Positions 3,880-61,300 of a stretch of 64,000 bases of DNA are shown one piece after another (position 1 is the first letter of the stretch; each line of letters opens with the position of its first letter). This DNA comes from Hoplostethus atlanticus (lineage: Eukaryota; Chordata; Actinopteri; Trachichthyiformes; Trachichthyidae). A program made the translations under genes and the position numbers. The stretch lies in the NCBI GenBank assembly GCA_034670405.1, contig JAXDDX010000014.1, positions 4,259,001 through 4,323,000 of the forward strand. Direction: 5' to 3'. A model generated the notes under the pieces. That model had not been told where the DNA came from. It was given only the letters and a program-made list of their open reading frames with translations, and made no database searches.

Positions 3880-6800
3880 CTGTAATACACAAAGCACAAT
3901 GCAGTTCAAAATAACAATCATTAACAGCAATCTGATGATTTATTAGATAGTCACAGCGTAGAAACAATCATGGATGAATTTCATGAGTTGAAATGGAAGC
4001 TTTAATACATCTACCCCAGTTCCTATTACTAATTAGGTCTTGTCATGTTGTTAGTTAAAGCTGCCTTCAGCTTTATATTGAGACCACTCAATCAGAATAC
4101 AAATTCTATCCTCCTATCTGACCTTTAAAAAAAGAAGAAAAAAAAAGAACCTGGAATAGTCCAGGATATTAAAAAGAAAAAAAAAATCTACCCTAAAAGT
4201 AATTCAACTTGGTAATTTGCTCCAATAGGTCACATTTAACACAAATTTATAAAAAGTAGAAATCAGGGAAATTAGATCTCCTTTTTGAAGCAATATATAA
4301 GTAGTAATTTCAGAAATATGTTTCTTGTCTATACAGCATACACATGGTTGGCTTTTGGAACCTGACTAACTGTACTTATGGGAAGCTATGGAAGTCAGTA
4401 CTAGAAGTTAGTACTAGAAGAAAAATAAATAGATAAATAATGACCAATAAATAATGAACGCAGATATATACACAGGTATAGAGTACTGCACTGGGCTCCA
4501 GATTATAAATCTCCGACAGCAGAGAATCTCCACTGAACCTTTTTGGTGATGGAATTGATGTTTTCCTCACACTTAAGGTCCTCAGAGATGTGGTTCCCAT
4601 GAACTTGAATGACTCCACAGTGGTGACTGCTGAGCCATTGATGTTAAAGGGAATAAAAAGAGGGGGGCTTTTCCTGAAGTCCACAGTCACTGTCTTCAGG
4701 GCATTTAGCTCCAAGTTGTTGGGGCTGGACCAGGACCCCAGGTGCTTGACCTCTGCCTGTGTGGTGACTCGTCACGATCAGAGTTGTGTCATCAGCCAAG
4801 TTGAGGAGCTTTACAGAGGGGTCCTTAGAGATGCAGTCATTGGTGTAGAGAGATTAGAGCAGAGGAGAAAACAGACAGCCCTGTGGTGTAGCAGTGCTGA
4901 GAGTCAGTGTGTGTGGTGGGTGCTTGCCCAGCCTCACATGCCATTTCCTGTCAGGAAGTCAGTGATCCACAGACGGGGTCAGGCACGCTCAGCTGGGAAA
5001 GGTTGGCCTATAGGAGCTCTGGTATGTCTGGTGTTAAATGCAGAACTAAATCCATAAACAGTGTCCTTGCATAGGTTCCCGGGCTGTCAAGGTGTTGAAG
5101 GGCAAAGTGTATGGGCCCAATTTGTTGTTTGGTGGTATATTTTTCTTATTCCCACAAATGGGAATGGCCATATGCATTTGACCAGGTTTAATCAGGTTTT
5201 GGTGTCAGCCCCTCAGAATCAAAGACCAAGGGCTTCTTTCTAGACTTCTTCTTTCCACCCATGTTAAAAAATTAAGCAATGAATGCAATGAATATCACAA
5301 ATTGATATTTAATACTAAGAATATCTGAGGGTGGATCTCTCCTTTTCCCTTTACTTTTGTGAGCAGACAGATGGCCCTTGCTTCTTCTGGGCTCTGCATT
5401 CACTCTCAGTGCAACAGACTGCGCGTCCAGTTTCTTTTCACTTTTTCACCCAACAACCAACACTGGGGGTCCATTTCAGTTATCTCACTCTCCATCGATG
5501 CTCAGCTAGGGCTTCATGTGTTATAGGCTACGTGAGAAAATTAGTTCTGATCCAATTCTGTTTATTCCCATTTATAGATGAAGAGGCAACAAAATTAAGA
5601 GGTATCTCTATCAAACAATATCAAACCCATATCAAACATTTATCCCATTTGATGCTCCTTTTTCATTTGTTTTCTTTTTGTTAAATGTTTTGTTTGCCAA
5701 CATACCTTGATTTTCTGTGATCTTTCCTGGAGGCTGATCAGTGAGTTGGAGGAGTTCCATGACTCGGCGTGGTGCCCATTCTTGAGTGATGCCACTTCCT
5801 TTCCGCTGAAAACTGAACTAGACAATGTCTATGAAAAAAACGAAAGAAAAACAAGGCAAAAATAAACATGTTTCTGGCAGCTGAAAAAGTGCAGAAGGAA
5901 ACAAAACACAAAAAGAGAATGGAAAAAGTCAAGTTTAGGACTCTTTTAATAATCTTAATGAATCAAATGTGTGGTGCTCACTCTGATCTGTTGTCTTCCG
6001 CTGAAAACTATAGCTTCAAGAAAGGGTCCAGACCATGTGAATATGCTCATATTCCTACATAGTAAAAGCAACGCTCCTGTAATGTTTAGAAAAAAATATT
6101 TTTGAAACATAATGGCACATAGTAGTAGTGGAATTAATAAATACAGTTTATGATTTATTCAAGATAGGCTTGTTATTTTACCTTACTCTTTTTGTTGTAT
6201 TATTTGCGTTTCAATTTTTATTTTATTTGTTTGTTTTCATATGTTTACATTTTAAAAGTCTTAATTTAGGTTTATTGGTCTTATTTGACAGATGCCACTG
6301 TATGGAACTTTTATGCACCTATCATTAAGGCGATATTTTGACTTTAAATACATTTTGTTACAATTACATGTTGAACAAAATGTGTGTTCTTGATTATAGC
6401 TTATTAAAACACTCAATGTAGGATTCAATAGATTTTAAAATGAAAATAGTAGTTAAAAAACTGGAGTTTCCAAACCTGGAGTTCAAAACATTATTGCAAG
6501 ATATAGAAAAAAATGGGACTCTAACAACAATGCAAGACCTGGTAGACCACCGAAACTATCACCATCAGATAGATAGTACTTAAATCATCAGCTTTCATCT
6601 TTGAGAGATAGGGACAAAAATAAAATCAAGCTCCACTCCACAGGCGTTTCTGTCGATCCTTCCATAGTGAGAAGACAACTCAATGCTATGAGTCTGAAAG
6701 GATGTGTAGCTGTCAAAAAGCCGCTACTGAGAAAAAGAAAGAAGAAAATTTGCACTACAACACCGAAACTGGACATGTGGAGTATGGTTTTATGGACTGA

Positions 6801-7386: not shown

Positions 7387-8777
7387 GAAAAATAAATAAC
7401 TTGCACTTTGTGACTGGAAATTAATTAAATGAAAGGGTGGTCTATGACTGACACAGTACTGTATATCTGAAGATAAAGAAAACCAATACCATATATATAT
7501 ATATATATATCATCATATTGCCTGAACTGCATGTTGTGTGATGGCCTAAATACTGTACAAAAGTGCCAGAATATTTTTGCTAACTTCCTTATAACGCAGT
7601 AACAAGCAATCACGTGTATTTTCATTTTATTTTCCAGACAATGTATGATCCTTAAATTCCAGCTCTGGTGTCTACAAGTTTTGCATGTTTTGAATATAAA
7701 CTTATTCACCCCAGGCGATTCTCCTTTTCCGAGAACAGGCAAACTTCCCTGTTCCCTCATATAGAAACCACTTACATTGCCATTTAGACTAATAGTCAAA
7801 TTAAGTGTGAGGGAAATAGCCTGCTGTCTTCTGGATGTTGTCAGGAGATGTTTGTTCCATTTCTGTGATTGAAGTATGAGGAAGTAATAAAGTGTGTCAG
7901 AACTACCAATCTCCTTCTCTAAAGCAGCCTGGAGCTAAATTGACAATGCATGACACCTAGTAAGTTATTATCATTAACTAGTTTGGAAGTGAAATTCTAG
8001 CGTTAAAAAAAAAACAAGTGATACAATTTTATAGATTTGTGACTTACAGATTGTATCAAGAGTCCTTTACATTAACTAGGTCTCATTATTTGTACTATGC
8101 ACTGAACTAATGCAAGTATCAAGACTGGTTTACATTTTTGACAGTAATCCAATCTATTTCCTTTTAAAAGATTTAACATTTTTGAAAGGGAAATAATAGA
8201 CACATGCACACACCTTGTGTCAATTGTTCCCTCTGTCCACAAGAGAACACTCAGCTCGAGTGTTCTCTTGTGGACACTCTAAAGTGGCTAAAGCAGCTGC
8301 TTCACCCCAGCTCTATAAATAGACACAACATTGGATGAGCCCAGACATCGGTGCCAATTTTCCTCCTCATTGGCACAACAAAGACAGGAGGGAGAATGAG
8401 ATGTAGGTCTATACAAGGATACCCAGCCATTTATTGTGTACAACCAGCAAGTGGAAAAAAAGAAAAACAGTGTTGTGTTGAAAAGTTTTGCTTGTGAAGC
8501 TGTCTTTCAGATCTGGATAAGTCTTATTTTATGAAATTACACTGAGTATAAAGTATCATTTTTGTAAACAACTTAAGAGGAATTTAATCTCCACCACAGG
8601 GTGCCAGTGACTGTGACAAGCATCTTAAAAATAAATCATAAAAAATCTGAACAAGGGGAGGGAATTTAGAGGGACGTTTGGTCTCAATGATCAATTCCCC
8701 TGGAAAATAAATGAGGGACTTAAGGTACTCTACCTGATTCTGAAGCTGCACAGGCAGAAGGGCATGTGCACTTGAAT

Positions 8778-25014: not shown

Positions 25015-31107
<6,093 letters not shown>

Positions 31108-39634: not shown

Positions 39635-42600
39635 ATATCTCTCTCTGTCACTCAATTTGAGACTTGACTATTGTTCTATGATTATTCTGAAACTTCATGT
39701 GTGCTATTTGTTGGAGTTGTTTGTTTGCAAATAAATGTTGGATCTCAGTGGGAGAAAGATAAGGTTCCAACAACATAAAAATAAAAGAAATGTGTGTTAT
39801 TTCACTTCACAAAACAAATGACATAAATAATTTGCTAGCTTATTATTTGATTTTATTGGAATATGACAAATGCCTCATCAATCAACACTGAGCAAGTCAA
39901 TAATAGTATCTCTGCTTTCTCCCATTATCAGGAAAAATGAAAACAAATCAAATGGACATAAAGGCCTTGTTTTTATTTTGAACATCTCTCCCTATTTAGT
40001 GTCAGCGTTTGTCAAAAAACCAAAGACTCAGGAGGCAGAAGAGGGGTCCTCTGTGGTCTTTGAAGCAGAGACTGAGAAGCCTGATGCAAAAGTAAAATGG
40101 CAATGCAGCACAAAGGATATTGCCAATGACAACAAATATGTGGTCGCAGCAGATGGAAACAAGCATTCCCTTAGCATCAAAGCTGTCACCATGGCAGATG
40201 CCAATGTCTATGCAGTGATTGCTGGGGGGTCAAAGGTCAAGTTTGAGCTGAAGGTCACACCAAAGCAAGGTAGGAGACTTTGATGCTGCAGCTGTGTGTT
40301 TGGGGTCTCCACTCACTCATCTGTGTGCTACATAGCCAAAACAGAGCACAAAGCAACATGGAGCACTCCATAGAGAACCACTGAGGGAGTAAACACTTTA
40401 TGTGCTCATGTATTTTAAGTTTCTGCACATTAACTCACTTCTGCACTGAGTATTGATGAGTACTCAACACAGAGGCCGCCAAGCACCATACTCTGGAACT
40501 GCTTTATGTGATCTAGCTTTGTGAACACTGCTCTATTTAGGCATTGCATATGGGCAACCACTGCCATAATCACAATCATGTTGTCAAGCACTCATTTGTT
40601 AAAAAGAAAATGCACAGAGCACTGCATGTTACAATGACTGTGTGCTAAGTATGTCATAGGGCAACACTTGTGCTGTTAGTCTGTCAATGTGACCTGTTTG
40701 GATTTGATAAGTGACAACAAATCTAAAAGAACAGAGAGAAAGAATGTCAGTAGACTGATGGGCTTCCTGTACTACAAGTGACTACTGACTGCACACAGCT
40801 GTCTGTGGCTCATATCATAACCACCCTTGCTCTGTCTGTAAGGTGACCTTGACCCTCACACCGGCAGATTATTTCCTCATGAGTAACCACCACTTGACTG
40901 GGCCTCAGGATAGGCATGAGAAGCAGCTGATAACACATGGAAAGTTGGTCAGACATTTAAAGATGATAAGACAGAAACATTTGGGTGATAAAAGTTTTGA
41001 AAGCATGCCAAAAAATATTTGGCTCTGATGAAACAATGTTTAAAAGAATCTGAAACGGGTCAAATGATGTGTATTGTACATAGCAAAAATGATGCAAATC
41101 TGTACTGCCCCTGGTGATTTTGGATTTCTAATGCTTTCTGTTTGCCGTAGTCCACCAAAACCACCAAGATCTAGTACAATTCACTGGTATAGTACACTCC
41201 AAAAATGTCCATCTTTACAAGTCATTGACAGTAAAGTCCTAGACTATTAAACAAGTGTAAATCTGCCAAATGAGTGATTTCACCTTTTTGCAAAGCAATC
41301 AACTTATTTTTGTGAATCTAGTGACATTATGATAATGATAAAAAAAATGTATTAATTAATAAAATTAAGATTTTAGGATGTAATTCTTGATTTGAATGAC
41401 TTCTTAAGAGGGACATTTTTTTTGCATTATGTGGCCACCATTTTTGCCATTGAATATCTCTCACTTGTGCCTCTTTGTTTCTATGATAATGGTAATACAG
41501 CAGCCCCTAAGCCGGCAGGGACAGCCACACCAGCTCCAATCAAGGCAACTGTAAAGGAAGCAGGAGAACCCCCTGTATTAATGGAACAGGTCCCTGTCCC
41601 ACCGGCAGCAGAACCCAAACCCACAGCAGAAGACACCCCTGCCCCAGCACATGAGGCTCCTCCAGCTGAGGGTGGGTCACACAGCACAAGTCCAAGTGGA
41701 TTAATTCATTCTTCATCTGTGGGGGATGTTTTATTTTATTTGTAATATTTAAAAAAAAAAAAGGTTCTGAGTCAATTACATGTGAGGAGAAATGTTAAGT
41801 CATCAAATAAGAATAACTTTGCTTAGCTTGTTGAACAGTAAAAGCGACCGCACTACAAACAGTTCTTAGAAACTGGACATAGTAATATTAGTCATTCATA
41901 AATATAGAAAACCATTGCAATGAAATCAAATACATATCGCATGACATTAATGCTTTTATAGTATCATATGTATCAGTTTTGGTTTAGATACCTATTTGTG
42001 TTTAAATTGGTCATGTTCAAAAGATTTTGATAATCGAAGTACCTTGAATGATTTGAAAATATCATGATGTTCAATATCTCAAAACTTCTCTGAATGCAGA
42101 AGGAACCTTTAAGTCCAAGCTTGTACTGTGGAAGACTGTGTCACAGGTTTACTGAATGAATTTGAATGAATGAATGAATGAAATTTATAACATTATGAAG
42201 TTCTTTGACTTTGACTCCTCAACTTCAGTTATGGCATTCTGTATTATCAACCTGTTGCATTTCCAGATGGCCAGCCTCCAGACACCAGACAGGACCTGAC
42301 TGGCCTCTTCACAGAGAAACCCCAGAGTGGAGAAGTCACTGTAGGTGAGCAGCCCCAAAATACCCAGTAAACAGTTCTTTCTTGGATAGGGTGTCTTGAA
42401 AAAAAGTAAATAAACCATCCTACCTTTTAAGTTTTTATATGTTACATGAGAAAAAGATAAACAAACTAAAATGCAAAATAAATAAATATATAGTTCTAAA
42501 TTACAAATACTCATTAAAGAAATCTATCAAAATAAATACAGAAATACATTGTTAACAAATGTGAATGTCTCAATTCTGCTACAGCATATAAGCACCGATG

Positions 42601-51600: not shown

Positions 51601-54600
51601 TGGTGCAGGGTAAGTCATATTTCGCTCTGGCCATGAAACACTATTGTCATAAAAGAAGTTAAACATTCCAAATACACATCCTCATACCCTACCAATAGTC
51701 ATATGGCCTTGTCACACTGCTCTTGGCATGTTGCCTAACCTTGGGATAAGGGGCCGCTTGCCATTACCCACATCATTATGCCAAGGTTACTGCCCAGACC
51801 TAAGTCCAAATGCCAGCTAAAGTTAGACGACATGGCCCATATTTTATCTGAAGGGCACAGGTCTGCACAAGTCACCCTGTTTCTCTGTTCTCTGTTCCCC
51901 TTCTCTCCTGTGTATTGTTTTGTAGTGCTGTTGATTCACTGTTGCTTGCTGCACTGTATATATGTATTTTTTGGTTTATAGGTAATAAGGTATATCATGA
52001 AATGTAAGAAAACCATAGCAGCCAAAAGCAAAACAAAACCTGAGGATTACAATGAGGAACACATTTGCCTGTAAAATCCAACATATTTTAAAGGCATATG
52101 CCTGATGATAAGGGAAAAAGTTTTTTAAATCATTCACAAGGATGTAGTGTTTCTGACATAATTTGTCCCCAAAAAAATCTATATAGATAAAGGGTAAATC
52201 ATGCTCTAAAAGTATGTTTTATTGATAGATGGTAGAATACCCTCTAGTACCATGGCACAACAGCCTGGTGATGCTGATGAAAGATCTGCACTCGGCCCAT
52301 CAGGATTTTGTAAGTTTGACTAGTAGATATTTGACTAGTAGATTTTCTGCACATAGATAATATTAAAAACATTTTTATATATATTTTTGATATTCCTTGT
52401 GATACTCAGTTCCACAACTGGAGAATGTTTGCAGAATGGATATGCTTAGAAGTTTCAATTTCAATCCACAGGTAATCGTTTAAGATTGGTGGATGGGGAC
52501 GTTTCAAACTCATCCCTACATGGACGTAGGAAAAATATAAACATCTAAGAAACCATCAGCTAGTTTCACCCTCTTAGTGACTACCAAGTAACCATGTCAT
52601 CTTGGCATCATTAATAGTACCATGGCACATGGTACTATTAGTACTATTAGAGCAGAAGTACTCATTATGGTACACAAAAACCCTTTCGATCATCACTACC
52701 ATCCAACTTTTGTTATATTTTGAGTTTTATGTGTTTTCATGTTTTCATTTACACACTATAATTTAGCCCTGGCTATGTTTGAATATATATACTCACTTGG
52801 ATACTTACTTGGATGTTTGCATATATATTCATGTGCTGTGAATATCGGTGTAAGTATGTGTGTGTGTGTCCCAGGAGTTGTTGTGCGTAGATCATCATTT
52901 TAAACCTGATTCTTGCCCCTGATCTCAGTCCAGTTAAGTTTATCTGGCTCCGCTAATTAAACACTGAGCCTGCCAAGAATTACCAGCTGCCAATGTGCAG
53001 CAGGTATCAACACCTCAGTCCACAGCAGAACTCCCATTATATTACCATTGACAGCTCATTTGCCCTCCCTGGTGGCAAGCTAACTTCAAACTTGTAACTT
53101 TTACTAGGAGTGTGGTGTGAGTTACATAGTCCAGATATTGGTTTCTTTGAGGTAACTTTAATAACTCCCACGTAAATTATTTCCTGTGATTTAATAGTCT
53201 CAGGCTCCCACATCTGGTGTTGATAACCTCGCGCTTTATTTTCTGCCATAAATCCAATTAACTAGTCCCCTTGTATCTGTTGCTAAGATACAACACACAA
53301 AGGCTGCAGTCAAGATAATGAACATCTCTCACTCTAACATATTATTACCATATTATCCTCACCCCCAATAGTTGCATCTCATTTCATCTTCTCATACCAC
53401 CTCCAGTACACGTACTCAAGGCGTCCATCATGCAGTGTGAGAACCCATAGTTTCCGTTTCCTGTACTCTAAACTTTGTTTTTTTTGACAATGTAGAGAAG
53501 GAGCTTGAGGTCTACCAGAGCATTGCCGACCTCACAGTAAAGGCAAAGGATGAGGCCGTCTTCAAGTGTGAGGTGTCAGATGAGAATGTGAAGGGCACCT
53601 GGTACAAGAACGGAGTTGAAGTCAAACCTGATACCAGAACCCACATCACACATATTGGCAGGTGTGTATGGTATTGTGTATGTGTCTTCTGGATATTTGT
53701 GTTTGTCGAATGTGTTGTGTACAGCCAATGACACAATTGAGTGAACCTTTGGACATTTTGGACCTTTAAAGGATCCACAAACTGACTATTGATGATGTCA
53801 AACCTGAGGATGAGGGAGACTACACTTTTGTACCAGATGGCTACGCTTTCAACCTCTGTGCCAAACTCAATTTCTTGGGTAATACTGATGCTTTCACATA
53901 AACTACTGTACACTATACAATTAACGTCATTTATAGTTCTACAAGGTAATTATGCTTGAATGAATTTGTCACTGTCAATTTCTTTCTTTATTTTTCTCTT
54001 ATTTTCCAAGAGGTGAAGATTGATTATGTGCCACGCCAAGGTAAACAACATCAAATTTGCATTGCATAGACTGAAGCACATTATAAGGATAATAGCGGTT
54101 GAAATACAAGCATTTGTTAAATTTAACCCTTTGTCATATGTCCTAAGATCCTCCTAAGATCCACCTGGACTGTATGAGTCACACTCCTGAGTCCACCATT
54201 GTGGTGGTGGCTGGCAACAAACTCCGTCTGGATGTCCCTATCACTGGAGATCCTGCGCCCACAGTGGTCTGGACCAAAGGAGAGAAGGTAAACCAGACAT
54301 AAAGCCCAGTGTTATTTATCAGCTACATGCCTATTGCCTTTCATCTGTCCAGACTACAGTGGGTAAGGCTTGCAGTTAAACAAATATTTGATGGCCTTTC
54401 TAATACCACAGTGTTACATTAAGCATTCTAAAACCATTTATATATTTCTAAAATATGTAATGCAAGTGCAATATCATCACAAGCTTTTTTCATTCAACCA
54501 TAAATAACCATAAAAGATACACAGATTAGCTGTGTACACTTACTGATGTTATAATAACTAATGTCGGCATTTCTCCCTGCTAAAAAAGTTGGCTGGGATA

Positions 54601-57600
54601 CGTAGGTCTTTTGGTGAGAGTATTCTGACTATTCTCACCCATCTGAACAGGTAGGATGCCACTAACATCTTAATTGCCCTCAGGTGCCTGGTAGAGCACT
54701 GGTCTTCTTTTACTGCTTTGCTCTGCTCAAATGTAGGCTAGTTCTGTAAAGCCGGAGGGAGAAGAGAAAGCAGTGCCAGCGTCCTCTTGGACCCTGAAGG
54801 ATGGGGAAGTGAGTGCAGACCTAAGCATATACAGTTCTCGTGGCCTTGTGCATGTCTCTTAGAAATATGTACATCTTTTTTATTGCGCCTCTCTGTAGCA
54901 TCTGGATTCTGAAATTCACCAACTCCACTCTGTGTGTTGATGCATCTTTATTTTATGCTGTCCCTGTTTTTCAGGCATGGTCTTTCACTCCTGACACCTT
55001 TGTCTTTCAACTTGTGTTTTGCACCCATCCATCCATGTTACACAGGGAAAACATGCTGCATGACTAACCTGGCCAGTAGCATCTAAGACATACAGATGTC
55101 GCCATCTTAGAAGTGCCACTTTTTTCTACATGCATTGCATTGATGGAGATAAACAATATATCTATTGATTTATTGATTTACATCACTAGAGAATGAAGAA
55201 GCTGCAGCAGTAGATATGGAGGATAGATGCAGACAGATGCATGAAAGTCAACTTCTGCAGTGGTTATATGCTTTGATTGTGATTTTACTGCCATCAATCT
55301 TTAAAATGTCACACAGCAGTCAGTGCAAGGTAGATGCTGCATGTGGCATTACTCTATATTCATCCATGTCCCTGAGGTAAGAGCATGTTCTGAATCTTCC
55401 TTCAGACAGACACTTCTCAGAGGAAACTCTGAGCTAGACAGTAAGTATGTGTAAATAATTTCCTGGATTGCATAATAAACTACTACTAAAATTGAAGTAG
55501 CTATAGTAACATTCTGGGATTTGCATTGAATTAATGATACATTTTGGTTCTTGAAAGAGAAAAAAAAAAAAAAAGCCACATATAACTGACTGCCCCTTTT
55601 CTGCAGTGTTTTTGAAGATTTGTCTTTGAAGGGCAAACATTGTGTGAGATAATTGTAATGGTCAGTTACTGTGACACATGTACATAGACATAACCTGAAT
55701 GAATTTTCAAACAATAAGCATATAGACACAAAAGCAGCTCAGGCCAACTCAATTTAAAACACTGTCCAGCACTGGTCCTGCATCTGCATGGTGACATCTG
55801 GAGTTCTTTTTTCAAGTGAACATGTTCTGTTGGCTTTGAAAAGCATGATCTGTTCAACTACTCTCAGAAAGATTGTGTTGAAAAGAGGAATGTTCATCTT
55901 CTTTGCAAATGTAGATACAAAATTAAAAAGAGTGGCATTCTGTGAATATAGACCCCCACAGAAGGGGGTTTATTAGTGCCTCAGTAGATGATCTACTGTA
56001 CCATGTGCTCAGCCAACAGTATGAGCAGCAACACAATACCATGTGTGACTCACTCATACATAATCTACTGAGGCACAATCCAAAATATTGGTGCCATGGC
56101 TGTTCTACGGATATCTCATGTTCTCTCGTGTTCTGATGGTCTAGATGGTCACAGAGGGAGATGGTAGGGTCCATGTGCAAAGCACCAAAGGCCACTGTAT
56201 CTTCACCATTGAGGGAGCTGAGAGGCAGGATGAGGGAATCTACTCTGTTGTGGTTCGCAATGCTGCTGGAGAAGATACTGCCGAAATCAATGTGAAAGTT
56301 GTTGGTAAGATGAAGCTCTCTCATTCATTTTTAATTCTTTGTAAGATAAGCAGTCATTTTCATCATCAGGTATATAGATATCATTACCTTACATTACATT
56401 ACATTACATTCAGCAGACGCTTTTATCCAAAGTGACTTACAATTAGTGCATTCAACATAAGTAGGCAAGAGAACTACTAGTCACCAGAAATCGTAAGTGC
56501 ATCTTCTCCCCAAACAAGCATCTAGGAGCATAACCAGTACTAAAGTATAAATGCAATAAGATATATATATTTATTTTGTAAACAAATAAAACAAATAAGC
56601 AAGCGCTAAGAGGAAGGGTCAGGGTAGTATTTTTTGAAAAGGTGGGTTTTCCGCCTGCGGTAGAAGATGGGCAGCGACTCTGCTGTCCTGACATCAGTGG
56701 GAGACATCTCTGTGGGGCAAGGACAGAAAAGAGCCGAGACTGGGTAGATCAGCTGCAGGGGCCTATGAGCGACGGGGCAACAGTTGCCTTGAGGCAAGGT
56801 GGGGTTGGGGATGTAGGGCTTGGCCATGGCCTGCAGGTAGGAATAGATGGATGCGAGCTGCTACAGGGAGCCAATGTGGAGAACGGAGGAGGGAGGTTAT
56901 GTGGCAGAACTTGAGAGGGTTGAACACCAGACAAGCTTTCTGAACAAGCTCCAGAGGTCTGATGGCAGACGCCGGGGCACCAGCAAGGAGGGAGTTGCAG
57001 TAGTCCAGGCGGGAGATGACAAGAGCCTGGATGAGCACCTGCGCTGTCTCATCAGTGAGGACGGGGCAGTTGGTCATCCAGGGTCACAACCATATTCCTT
57101 GCAGTCCCAGTTGACATCACCACAGCATTGTCAATGGTGATGGCCAGGTCTCGGTGCAAACAACCCTTCCCCAGGAGGAACACCAGCTCAGTCTTGTCAA
57201 GCTTCAGGTGGTGCATTGTCATCCACACCGAGATGTCTTCCAGGCAGGCAGCAATGCTTGCCTCCACTTGTGTGTCAGAGGGGGCGAATGACAAGATCAA
57301 TATCAATCTCAACACTGCCAATAACCCCATCCCCCCCCCCACCCTTTCTTTTTTCTTCAAAAAAGCTGTATGTCTATCTGACCCATTAGTTCAGACTACT
57401 CCATATGTATGTATATATATTTTCTGATCATATTAACAATGTTTTCTGGCAGATGTTCCAGATCCTCCCCAGGCTCCCAGGATCCTCAGTGTAGGAGAGG
57501 ACTCCTGTGTTGTCCAATGGGATGCCCCTCTGTTTGACGGTGGACAGCCAGTCATTGGTAAAAACATATCAGGGTTAATTTGCTAAAATTACTATTTAAT

Positions 57601-58311
57601 TGCTTTTTTCTAACAAGCAGAGATGTCTAAAAAGTCCTGAAAAAGAATGCTGAATCAAAAGAACATCAAGTGCTGCTTCTCTTTTACTTCTCAGGCTATG
57701 TGCTGGAGAGAAAGAAGAAGAAGAGCTACAGGTGGATGAGACTGAACTTTGACCCTTACCCTGAAACAACCTATGAAGCCAAGCGGATGATTGAGGGAGT
57801 GGCATATGAGATGCGGGTTTACGCTGTCAACGCCATCGGCATGTCTCGTCACAGTCCTGCCTCACAACCTTTTGTTCCAGTTGGTGAGTCTCTTCTCAAG
57901 GGTTTTCACTGGCCCTTACCCCATTTGCTGTATTCAATTATTGTCAAACATTTTCCATTGGATATTTAACTGCAAGAGTTGTTCACTGTTGAAATCATAG
58001 AAGACCACTGGGGAACTATGAACTAATAAAAATGACCCATCATTGTTTTAAACATGCTCTATACTACAGTTCAGTAAAGACACTGATTGATGGCAAGTCT
58101 GGGCGAACGGAGGGTAGAGGGTGATGTGGTTGATATATATCACTCTGGGGTTGGGTCATGCCTGGTTTGGTCAGTCTAGAATTTCACTGGGGTCAGGCGT
58201 GGTTGACTTGTGGTTATGGCACAGCAGGGTCGTACTTGTTGTACTCTGAGATGTCTGTGGATCTTCCCTCTGTCACAGAGATATAAGCTACAAATAGATG
58301 ATTGATTATGT

Positions 58312-58373
<62 letters not shown>

Positions 58374-61300
58374 ATAATACACATAATTCTGTGGACCTTA
58401 AGAAAATCGTAAGGTCTACCATCTACCATGGATTGTTTTGGGATCTACATAGATTCAGTGTGCTATAGGATTTGTATGTCAGAACTGCAATTAGAGACAA
58501 GAGGAGAAATAAACATGTTCAGGTGACCAACATAAAACCAGAACCCTGTGACCTGGGGCACAGGCACTTTTTACCTACCTTCTCATCCTCCACTGGGATG
58601 TAACCATGAACATCATTGTATCCAGATGGCCCGTCGTTTGTAAGACAGCTGATTAGGAAACTATCCATGGCATCCTTTTCTATAAATAATGGTCTTTAAG
58701 TGTGCAGCTCCCCCTGTGTGCTGAACACACAGGGGCTTGCTGCTACTGTGGAGGCTGCTCAGGAGGAAGCTTTGCTGTGGCTACAGCAAAGACAATAGAA
58801 AGAGAAAGAAAGAGTGAAAGAGTGAGCGGGCGTGAAAGCAAAGGGTAGAGCAAGGCATTTCGCAGGACAGGTGGAACAATCGCCAACTTCAATCAGCAGT
58901 AGGACGGCCATACATGAAAATAAGCAGGAAGAATGACAAAGCCTATGCTCCCAAAGACCGCTGAAAAGAAACCAGTGGCAGAAGAGACATCAGTGGACGC
59001 TCCAGTGACGGCACCAGCTCAAGATGAAGCCAAGGAATCTAAGACAGCAGAACCCCAACCTCCTGCAGAGGAGGCCAGTTGTGAACCAGCAGCAGCCCCT
59101 GCAGAAGCAGCTCCCACTGGGGAAGAGGGAGCTGAGATTGGGGCACCACCAGCTGAGAATGGGGCACCATCAGTTGAGAATGGGGCACCACCAGCAGAGG
59201 ATGTCCCTCTGACAGAAAGTGGGCCCTCTGCAGAAGCAGGAGCTGCACCCCCAGCAGAGGGGACCCCTATGGAGCCCGCTCCTGCTCCTGAACCTGAGCC
59301 AGAGCTGGAACCTGTTGGCAGTAGGCTTTATTCATTTTAAGATCTAGGATAAACACATAGGATTGGCATGGTTTAAAATAGAAATTAGCATGACTGAATT
59401 TTGTTTGGATGACATTAAGATATGATGGAAACATTGGCTGAATTTTTCTTTGTACTATATAATTTTTCACTCTTTTATCCAAATTGTTTGTCATTTTTTT
59501 CAGTGGTGTATATGTTTCAGATGGTTAAGCATGATTTGGTATTCATTGCTTTGAGGTAGCTGGTGGTCAGTCTTGTTTGATTATTAGAGGTTGTTGCATT
59601 GCTGAAACAATGCTCATAGGAATAGAGCATGCTTTATATAGTAACTTATTAAATTAGAATGAAAAAATATCCTTCTGTTTCTTAATAGAGAATCTGAAAG
59701 AGACATTTGCTGTGCACCTTTTGTCTGTACTACCCTGAGCTTCCCCTATAGACATTCCCTCCTGCTGTGACTAACTACACAAATGGAAACCCTTGGCCCC
59801 TGACAGCTGTTTACATCATTTGCTTGTATGGCTAACCTGTGACATGGAGTCAGCCTTAGATGGGACAAGGCCACAACTGAAATCCAAGACCTTTGGATGG
59901 ATAATGACAATTTAAGTCCTGTTTGTTGTTACATAGCTTTGTGATATAGTTTGCTATGTAACACTTAGCAATTAATTTCTACTACTTATTTATCAATTAA
60001 TTCTGCATTTATTCCTATAATATGCTCCAACTGACAAACATATTCAATGTATGCCCCTCCCCTGTCTCTCCCTCAGCCCCTACTAGTGAGCCCATTGGAC
60101 TGTGCATAGATGACATCAGTGACACTTCCATCTCACTGAAGTGGAGGGCCCCTGAGAGGATGGGCTCAGCTGAACTTGATGGATATGGGGTTGAGTACTG
60201 CAAGGAGGGCAGTAAGTGCTGGTGCCACCTTACTACATGATTTTAATTGGGGTTTGACCATATTTTATGCAAGGAAAATGTATTCCTAATGCAGAGCTGT
60301 AAAATCCCGTCCAGCTGTAATCGTCCAACCAGGATTTTTCTCCACCTGTCTCTTAACAAGGTGATAACAATTATTAGTCACTTCCACTGCTGTAGAATGG
60401 AACTAATACAAAAAAAATCAATTAATATAGATTGTTAGGTAGAGGAAAGTCTGTTAAACCCAGTCTTCAAGAGACTTGCTCTTTCACTTTCAGTGTAGAC
60501 TCCACCTAAATATAGCTGAGCTTTGACAGTGATTAGCAAGACTTAAAAAATAAATCTAAAACTCAAGCATTACATGTTAGCAAATAGAGCGACAGTATGA
60601 TGAATAAAAACATTTAAAAGCATTGATGGCTTTCAGCCTATCAATTCAGATTACCAGGTTTGGGATAAACAAGCTCTCTGCTCTCTCTGTTTAAGGTCAC
60701 ATTACATAACATTGTTGTTCAACCCAATTCAAATATTGTTAAAATAGTGTTACATGCCATTATATATTATATACAATATAACCAAGCATAACCAGCATGA
60801 CCAAGTTTATTGCCATGGCAAAACGTGAGTAAGCATCTACATGTTGTAAAAGCCTGGCCTCTCAACATTAATCTGGAGCTTCTTCCTATCAATCTTTTTA
60901 TAGTGGGCCATTATCTACTTTGCTCTGGCCTCAGGAGGACACTCTAGGCCGTTAGCATAGTGATTGTATGATTATATTAACTTCCCTAGGGGCTGCCATA
61001 ATCTAAGTGTCCTAAATGGATGCAGCTTTGCCTGGTACTTCAATCTGAATACCTGTATGCTGGTATGGAGATTAAGTCAACAGTTTCTTACTGTTATTGT
61101 TTCTGTTATTGGTCAAGAAAACCACAAATATATCAGCTCTACAAGATATTAGATATCTGTCAATAAAACTGATATAAGTTCAGCTGAATTTATATGTTTA
61201 ATTTCTATTCCATTGTAACATTTGATGTCAAATGGATATTGAATTTAATTGCCACTGCCCCAATGTTATGGCCACAGCGGATGAGTGGGTGCCAGCTTTT

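Follow-up and report, generated by a model that had tools for sequence, protein, structure and literature searches.

A candidate alternative first exon in the C6/C7 intron of mybpc3 of Hoplostethus atlanticus, predicted to encode a protein with the plan of MyBP-H

The window analysed here (the whole stretch of 64,000 nucleotides, on contig C14 of the 632.8-Mb genome of Hoplostethus atlanticus) contains, from about 40 kb onward, the gene encoding cardiac MyBP-C (mybpc3), represented by the C0 exon, the Pro-Ala linker, the M domain and the C1-C10 exons (domain names were given to the exons by eye). The exon encoding the second half of C6 (57697-57883, plus strand; 57697 is the start of the query peptide and not the exact splice site) ends in phase 1 with a gtgagt donor at 57884, and is followed by a C6/C7 intron of 2,193 bp (57884-60076, plus strand). 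The exons placed downstream, all of them on the plus strand, are: the first exon of C7 (60077-60211), entered in phase 1; the second exon of C7 (61278-61445); the two exons of C8 (61810-61898 and 62272-62467); and the first exon of C9 (62742-62881). The second half of C9 and C10 were placed past the end of the window, in the 3' flanking sequence (L002). The C6/C7 introns of the three other MyBP-C-type genes of the same genome measure roughly 630, 160 and 125 bp.

Other features of the neighbouring sequence were an Ets-domain exon upstream of mybpc3 (30766-31104), which we take to be probably spi1; a GC-rich block in the C5/C6 intron (56580-57430, minus strand), whose overlapping minus-strand frames resemble a decayed non-LTR retrotransposon reverse transcriptase, and whose three plus-strand frames were scanned and gave no Pfam match; the longest plus-strand open frame of the window (4509-5054, 182 codons), also with no Pfam match; and a 159-codon open frame approximately 6 kb downstream of the last placed mybpc3 exon (L002:9107-9583, plus strand), again with no Pfam match.

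Inside the C6/C7 intron lies a predicted alternative first coding exon (58933-59320, plus strand; the head), Lys-tipped and rich in Pro, Ala and Glu, whose coding sequence of 388 nt (129 codons plus one nucleotide) ends in phase 1. The initial annotation had described an in-frame stop ahead of an ATG and a 129-codon Pro/Ala/Glu-rich frame, and both were found: a TAA at 58921-58923 (plus strand), the ATG at 58933, and no stop up to 59320, the open frame extending from stop to stop over 58924-59337. Four of the six lysines among the 129 residues of the head fall within the first 13 (P about 9e-4; P 0.005 for the first 20), both cut-offs having been picked after the sequence was seen. The head includes an in-frame, imperfect 21-bp tandem array of 3.5 copies (59130-59203, plus strand). 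At the DNA level it matches a single place in the genome, namely itself; an E = 1 match on contig C67, considered as a second copy, was judged to be due to chance. No relatives were confirmed in the prokaryote and viral collections, and no similar frame was present among the frames listed for the C6/C7 introns of the three other MyBP-C-type genes.

The strongest evidence for the head is its three-base periodicity, a measure that requires no training set. It reaches 0.226 bits, a value not attained in any of 657 equally long windows outside the mybpc3 exons (the sampled sequence starts at 30 kb of the window and extends 18 kb past its end; the Ets exon was left in and gave their maximum, 0.057). 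In windows of 150 bp, the periodicity is 0.012 at 58813-58962, lies between 0.18 and 0.31 in five windows, the first at 58933-59082 and the last at 59173-59322, and is 0.033 at 59293-59442, with two later windows climbing to 0.075 and 0.058. The value of the head is 0.216 bits when the 21-bp array is removed, and the periodicity of its first 86 and first 129 bp was in each case reached by none of 2,000 intron pieces of mybpc3. Among 5,609 windows of 300 bp covering 170 kb (82 kb from the window with its 3' sequence, plus 88 kb from five paralogue loci), the four highest places were: the nested head (0.275); the heads of two mybph genes, on contigs C35 (0.261) and C27 (0.172); and the mybpc3 Pro-Ala exon (0.123). 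Seventeen of the next 21 places overlap known exons, and the other four (C35:241, positions 53791 and 57061 of the window, and C281:7381) do not exceed 0.077. The codon-position entropies of the head are 1.59, 1.66 and 1.87 for positions 1, 2 and 3; position 3 is the loosest, as expected if the protein rather than the DNA was conserved. G+C contents by codon position are.79/.61/.36 in the head and.74/.66/.35 in the mybpc3 Pro-Ala exon. The signature of coding sequence spans the head from near its ATG to near its donor, and the head is very probably a coding exon, either present or recent.

Upstream of the head, the claimed combination of a TATA box and a MEF2 consensus was located in the C6/C7 intron as CTATAAATAA (58680-58689, plus strand). 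The pattern CTATAAATAR has two occurrences in the 64-kb window, at 8313 and 58680 of the plus strand; the looser MEF2 consensus YTAWWWWTAR has 21 on each strand. Nearby there are an E-box, CAGCTG (58646-58651; 41 in the window), and a TTAAGTG (58696-58702, plus strand; 11 on the plus and 12 on the minus strand of the window), labelled NKX2-5-like according to a consensus that we assume; both are motif matches only. From the spacing to the TATA box, the transcript would start near 58706-58712, giving a predicted 5' UTR of 58706-58932 (plus strand). The suggestion of a plausible 5' UTR stands in that the 222 bp from the TATA box to 58914 are free of ATG, which occurs in 102 of 6,370 windows of that length; but an upstream ATG at 58914, out of frame and in a poor start context, opens 16 codons (58914-58964, plus strand) that overlap the main start. 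A perfect 10-bp hairpin lies near the predicted 5' end of the transcript (58711-58735, plus strand); the whole predicted 5' UTR folds hardly better than its shuffles (z -0.81), and no RNA family matched the C6/C7 intron at gathering score. The ATG-poor leader, together with the MEF2/TATA box and the E-box, points to a first exon; the promoter inside mybpc3 is putative, being suggested and not proved by these motif matches.

The head was also said to end in a GT donor in the phase accepted by the C7 exon. The phase and the stop-free join were correct for the GT at 59321-59322 (GCA|gtaggc, phase 1, plus strand), but this donor is weak: its score (2.7) is lower than those of all 101 reference donors (median 7.5) and is equalled or exceeded by 292 of the 1,258 GTs in the 43-65 kb region. 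A better phase-1 GT (59219-59220, plus strand; score 5.6) follows 59218 and would give a head of 95 codons. The same scoring gives 5.3 and 3.9 for the two mybph head donors. Periodicity is present up to 59320 (0.23 bits over 59206-59319), so the longer, 129-codon exon seems to be coding too. The acceptor of the first C7 exon, which the head would share with the C6 exon, scores 16.9, the top of 98 reference acceptors, itself included (median 8.2). The reference sites were chosen automatically, and some of them may be wrong; one of 102 donors and three of 101 acceptors were dropped from the splice matrices under simple consensus limits.

Joined in this way, the head and C7-C10 give a stop-free translation of 533 amino acids as far as the last exon placed. 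The C7-C10 part of this predicted product contains two fn3 and two I-set stretches, that is, the Fn3-Ig-Fn3-Ig ending, and residues 117-533 align along C7-C10 of human cardiac MyBP-C, the top match among the 73 solved chains matched. A search of the genome with C7-C10 gave three MyBP-C-type loci (contigs C13, C44 and C281), two mybph-type loci matching from C7 on (C27 and C35), titin-like repeats, including large arrays on contig C197 that we take to be titin, and a few single weaker matches. No separate MYBPHL-like locus was among the results of this search, and the two mybph-type loci form one clade. The head exons of both mybph genes start with MPAKPAPIKK or MPSKPAPMKK, are rich in Pro, Ala and Glu, and end in a phase-1 donor. 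Between these heads and C7 there are small separate Pro/Ala-rich exons, read by eye: one in C27 (L042) and two in C35 (L044). The initial annotation had likened the predicted product, a head followed by C7-C10, to MYBPH, and the two mybph genes of the same genome bear out the comparison: in all three, C7-C10 follows a head exon that is Lys-tipped, rich in Pro, Ala and Glu, and closed by a phase-1 donor, and a low-complexity head replaces C0-C6. The product, as predicted, is MyBP-H-like in plan. The mybph genes differ from the nested unit in being separate genes, in having the small Pro/Ala exons before C7, and in lacking its MEF2/TATA box; the full MEF2 consensus is absent from the 400 bp upstream of both mybph ATGs, and a TATA-like box near the start is present in C27 only.

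A coding-type periodicity bounded by the ATG and the donor, an in-phase join to C7, a single genomic place and the plan of mybph are all present at this locus, and we consider it likely that the segment is an alternative first exon with a muscle promoter of its own, and that it is in use. A muscle promoter in the C6/C7 intron (the E-box and the combined MEF2/TATA box) would start a short transcript; its first exon would comprise the 5' UTR and the 129-codon head (95 codons via the upstream donor), with a lysine-rich tip and a Pro/Ala/Glu-rich stalk; this exon would be spliced in phase onto the C7 exon, giving head-C7-C8-C9-C10; and the product, estimated from its length at about 57-60 kDa, would sit on the thick filament via C7-C10, without the C0-C6 arm, as MyBP-H does. 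The transcription, splicing, tissue and function of the head isoform are predicted here from sequence.

The same coding exon might instead be used as an internal cassette of full-length cMyBP-C, forming a long Pro/Ala hinge between C6 and C7, a reading to which we give little credit. The Pro/Ala/Glu composition fits a linker, and splicing at an AG before 58928 would leave the reading frame unbroken between the C6 donor and the C7 acceptor, both of phase 1; however, no other acceptor just upstream of the ATG keeps the frame, and this one scores -3.1 (median of the 98 reference acceptors, 8.2), which makes the cassette unlikely. Frame-keeping AGs with higher scores (6.6 at 59069, the best, and 5.9 at 59105) are located within the frame, and their use would remove its first third; the cassette also fits poorly with a periodicity that starts at about the ATG and with a TATA box upstream. 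It is likewise improbable that the head once served as a coding exon but is now dead or scarcely used, its codon structure being left from an active ancestor: the weak donor after 59320 and the overlapping upstream ATG would suit such a relic, but 129 codons have remained without a stop or a frameshift, and the promoter box and the alternative donor are intact.

Less credible still is a GC-rich, low-complexity intron stretch that happens to be open by accident. Plus-strand frames of at least 138 codons arise in 37 of 2,000 dinucleotide shuffles of the region, and three plus-strand frames in the window are longer than that of the head; frame length (about 0.02 locally) was therefore rejected as proof of coding. 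Codon usage was rejected as well. When the training set was small and local (exons of mybpc3 versus non-exon sequence nearby), the codon-usage likelihood of the head came to 0.59 bits per codon, the other two plus-strand frames scoring 0.03 and 0.23; this was the highest score among 60 plus-strand frames of at least 80 codons in 82 kb. The result failed, however, once training was extended to 103 exons taken from six genes: the value was then 0.262 bits per codon, against 0.265 in another frame, and was reached by 818 of 5,000 shuffles. The synonymous-only codon score of the head was -0.185. Chance would also be compatible with the presence of the 21-bp array, but it does not account for the periodicity: no other window in 170 kb is as high, the signal remains when the array is left out, and it declines at the ATG and at the donor. 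A frame on the minus strand (59019-59327, 102 amino acids) is hardly conceivable as the source of the signal: it is open, owing to the GCN, CCN and GAR codons of the plus strand, and by its position it shares the third-codon wobble of the plus-strand frame, but it contains no Met, stops at 59019 and omits the periodic first part of the head (58933-59018).

The plan shared with MyBP-H does not imply shared descent, the heads being unalignable beyond composition. C7-C10 of MyBP-C is described as homologous to MyBP-H (PMC7427331), and the MYBP family has been placed in a 2R paralogon, human MYBPHL and MYBPH being assigned to a more recent local duplication (PMC6298421). The proposal that the nested unit bears on the origin of MyBP-H and MyBP-HL was not supported. 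Local alignment of the nested head gave z 0.42 against the C27 head and 1.80 against the C35 head (the latter reached by 48 of 1,000 shuffles), whereas the two mybph heads gave 8.22 with each other; the nested head thus showed no similarity to them above composition. The same applied to the mybpc3 Pro-Ala exon, the C0-C1 linker (41506-41700; z 0.52), which is similar to the head in codon-position G+C and in the choice of Ala and Pro codons, but is an internal exon with no match to the head past composition. In a C7-C10 tree of 10 rows, three of which were titin-like segments serving as distant rows (one on a long branch), the present mybpc3 groups with human MYBPC3 (96/95) and C27 and C35 form a clade of their own (100/100), which does not include C7-C10 of the nested unit; this tree does not settle how mybph branched relative to mybpc3, and it gave no backing to a descent of mybph from mybpc3. 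Upstream of the two mybph heads, no C0-C6 remnants matched at E 0.01 or better in 2.9 and 5.3 kb. It is conceivable, if doubtful, that the nested unit is ancestral: a pre-2R MyBP-C gene would already have carried, between its C6 and C7, the promoter together with the head exon, and after genome duplication one copy would have kept only the short transcript, becoming MYBPH, while mybpc3 of this fish kept both. If this is true, MyBP-H would be an isoform turned gene.

There are known systems of a similar kind. Telokin, like the predicted mybpc3 product, is a short C-terminal Ig protein produced from an intronic promoter in a muscle gene (that of MLCK); it differs in consisting of a single Ig domain, in belonging to smooth muscle and in the absence of a Pro/Ala/Glu head exon. 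In titin (TTN), an internal promoter yields a C-terminal isoform, Cronos, that softens the effect of upstream truncations, for which evidence from zebrafish, mouse and human has been described (PMC4720518). What the mybpc3 unit, with its putative promoter, would have in common with Cronos is a start inside a sarcomeric Ig/Fn3 gene and a C-terminal isoform spared by upstream truncations; Cronos was documented by 5'-RACE, chromatin data and mutants (PMC4720518), whereas the mybpc3 unit is predicted here from DNA sequence. In both, the predicted or demonstrated start exon lies within the host gene and is in phase with the downstream exons; unlike Cronos, the mybpc3 unit has an intronic, low-complexity exon dedicated to the head. 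In the accessible portions of the open-licence literature we found no previous description of an internal mybpc3 promoter.

If the head exon is transcribed, a MyBP-H-like protein is a further product of the cardiac MyBP-C gene in at least one fish, and a mutation truncating that gene ahead of C7 would not give a complete null. In zebrafish, mybpc3 has been knocked out via a stop in exon 2 (PMC9408294), and such an allele would spare the short form, if zebrafish has the exon. For human mutations the implication is an extrapolation from one fish, as would be the presence of the exon in human. In human tissue, MYBPHL has been reported as mainly atrial, MYBPH as skeletal and MYBPC3 as mainly ventricular (PMC6620353); as no MYBPHL-like locus was found in the C7-C10 search of this genome, we speculate that its place could be taken by a short mybpc3 product in the heart. 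If transcribed, the nested unit would also provide a concrete path, open to testing, by which MyBP-H could have arisen: as an isoform that separated from its gene once the genome had been duplicated.
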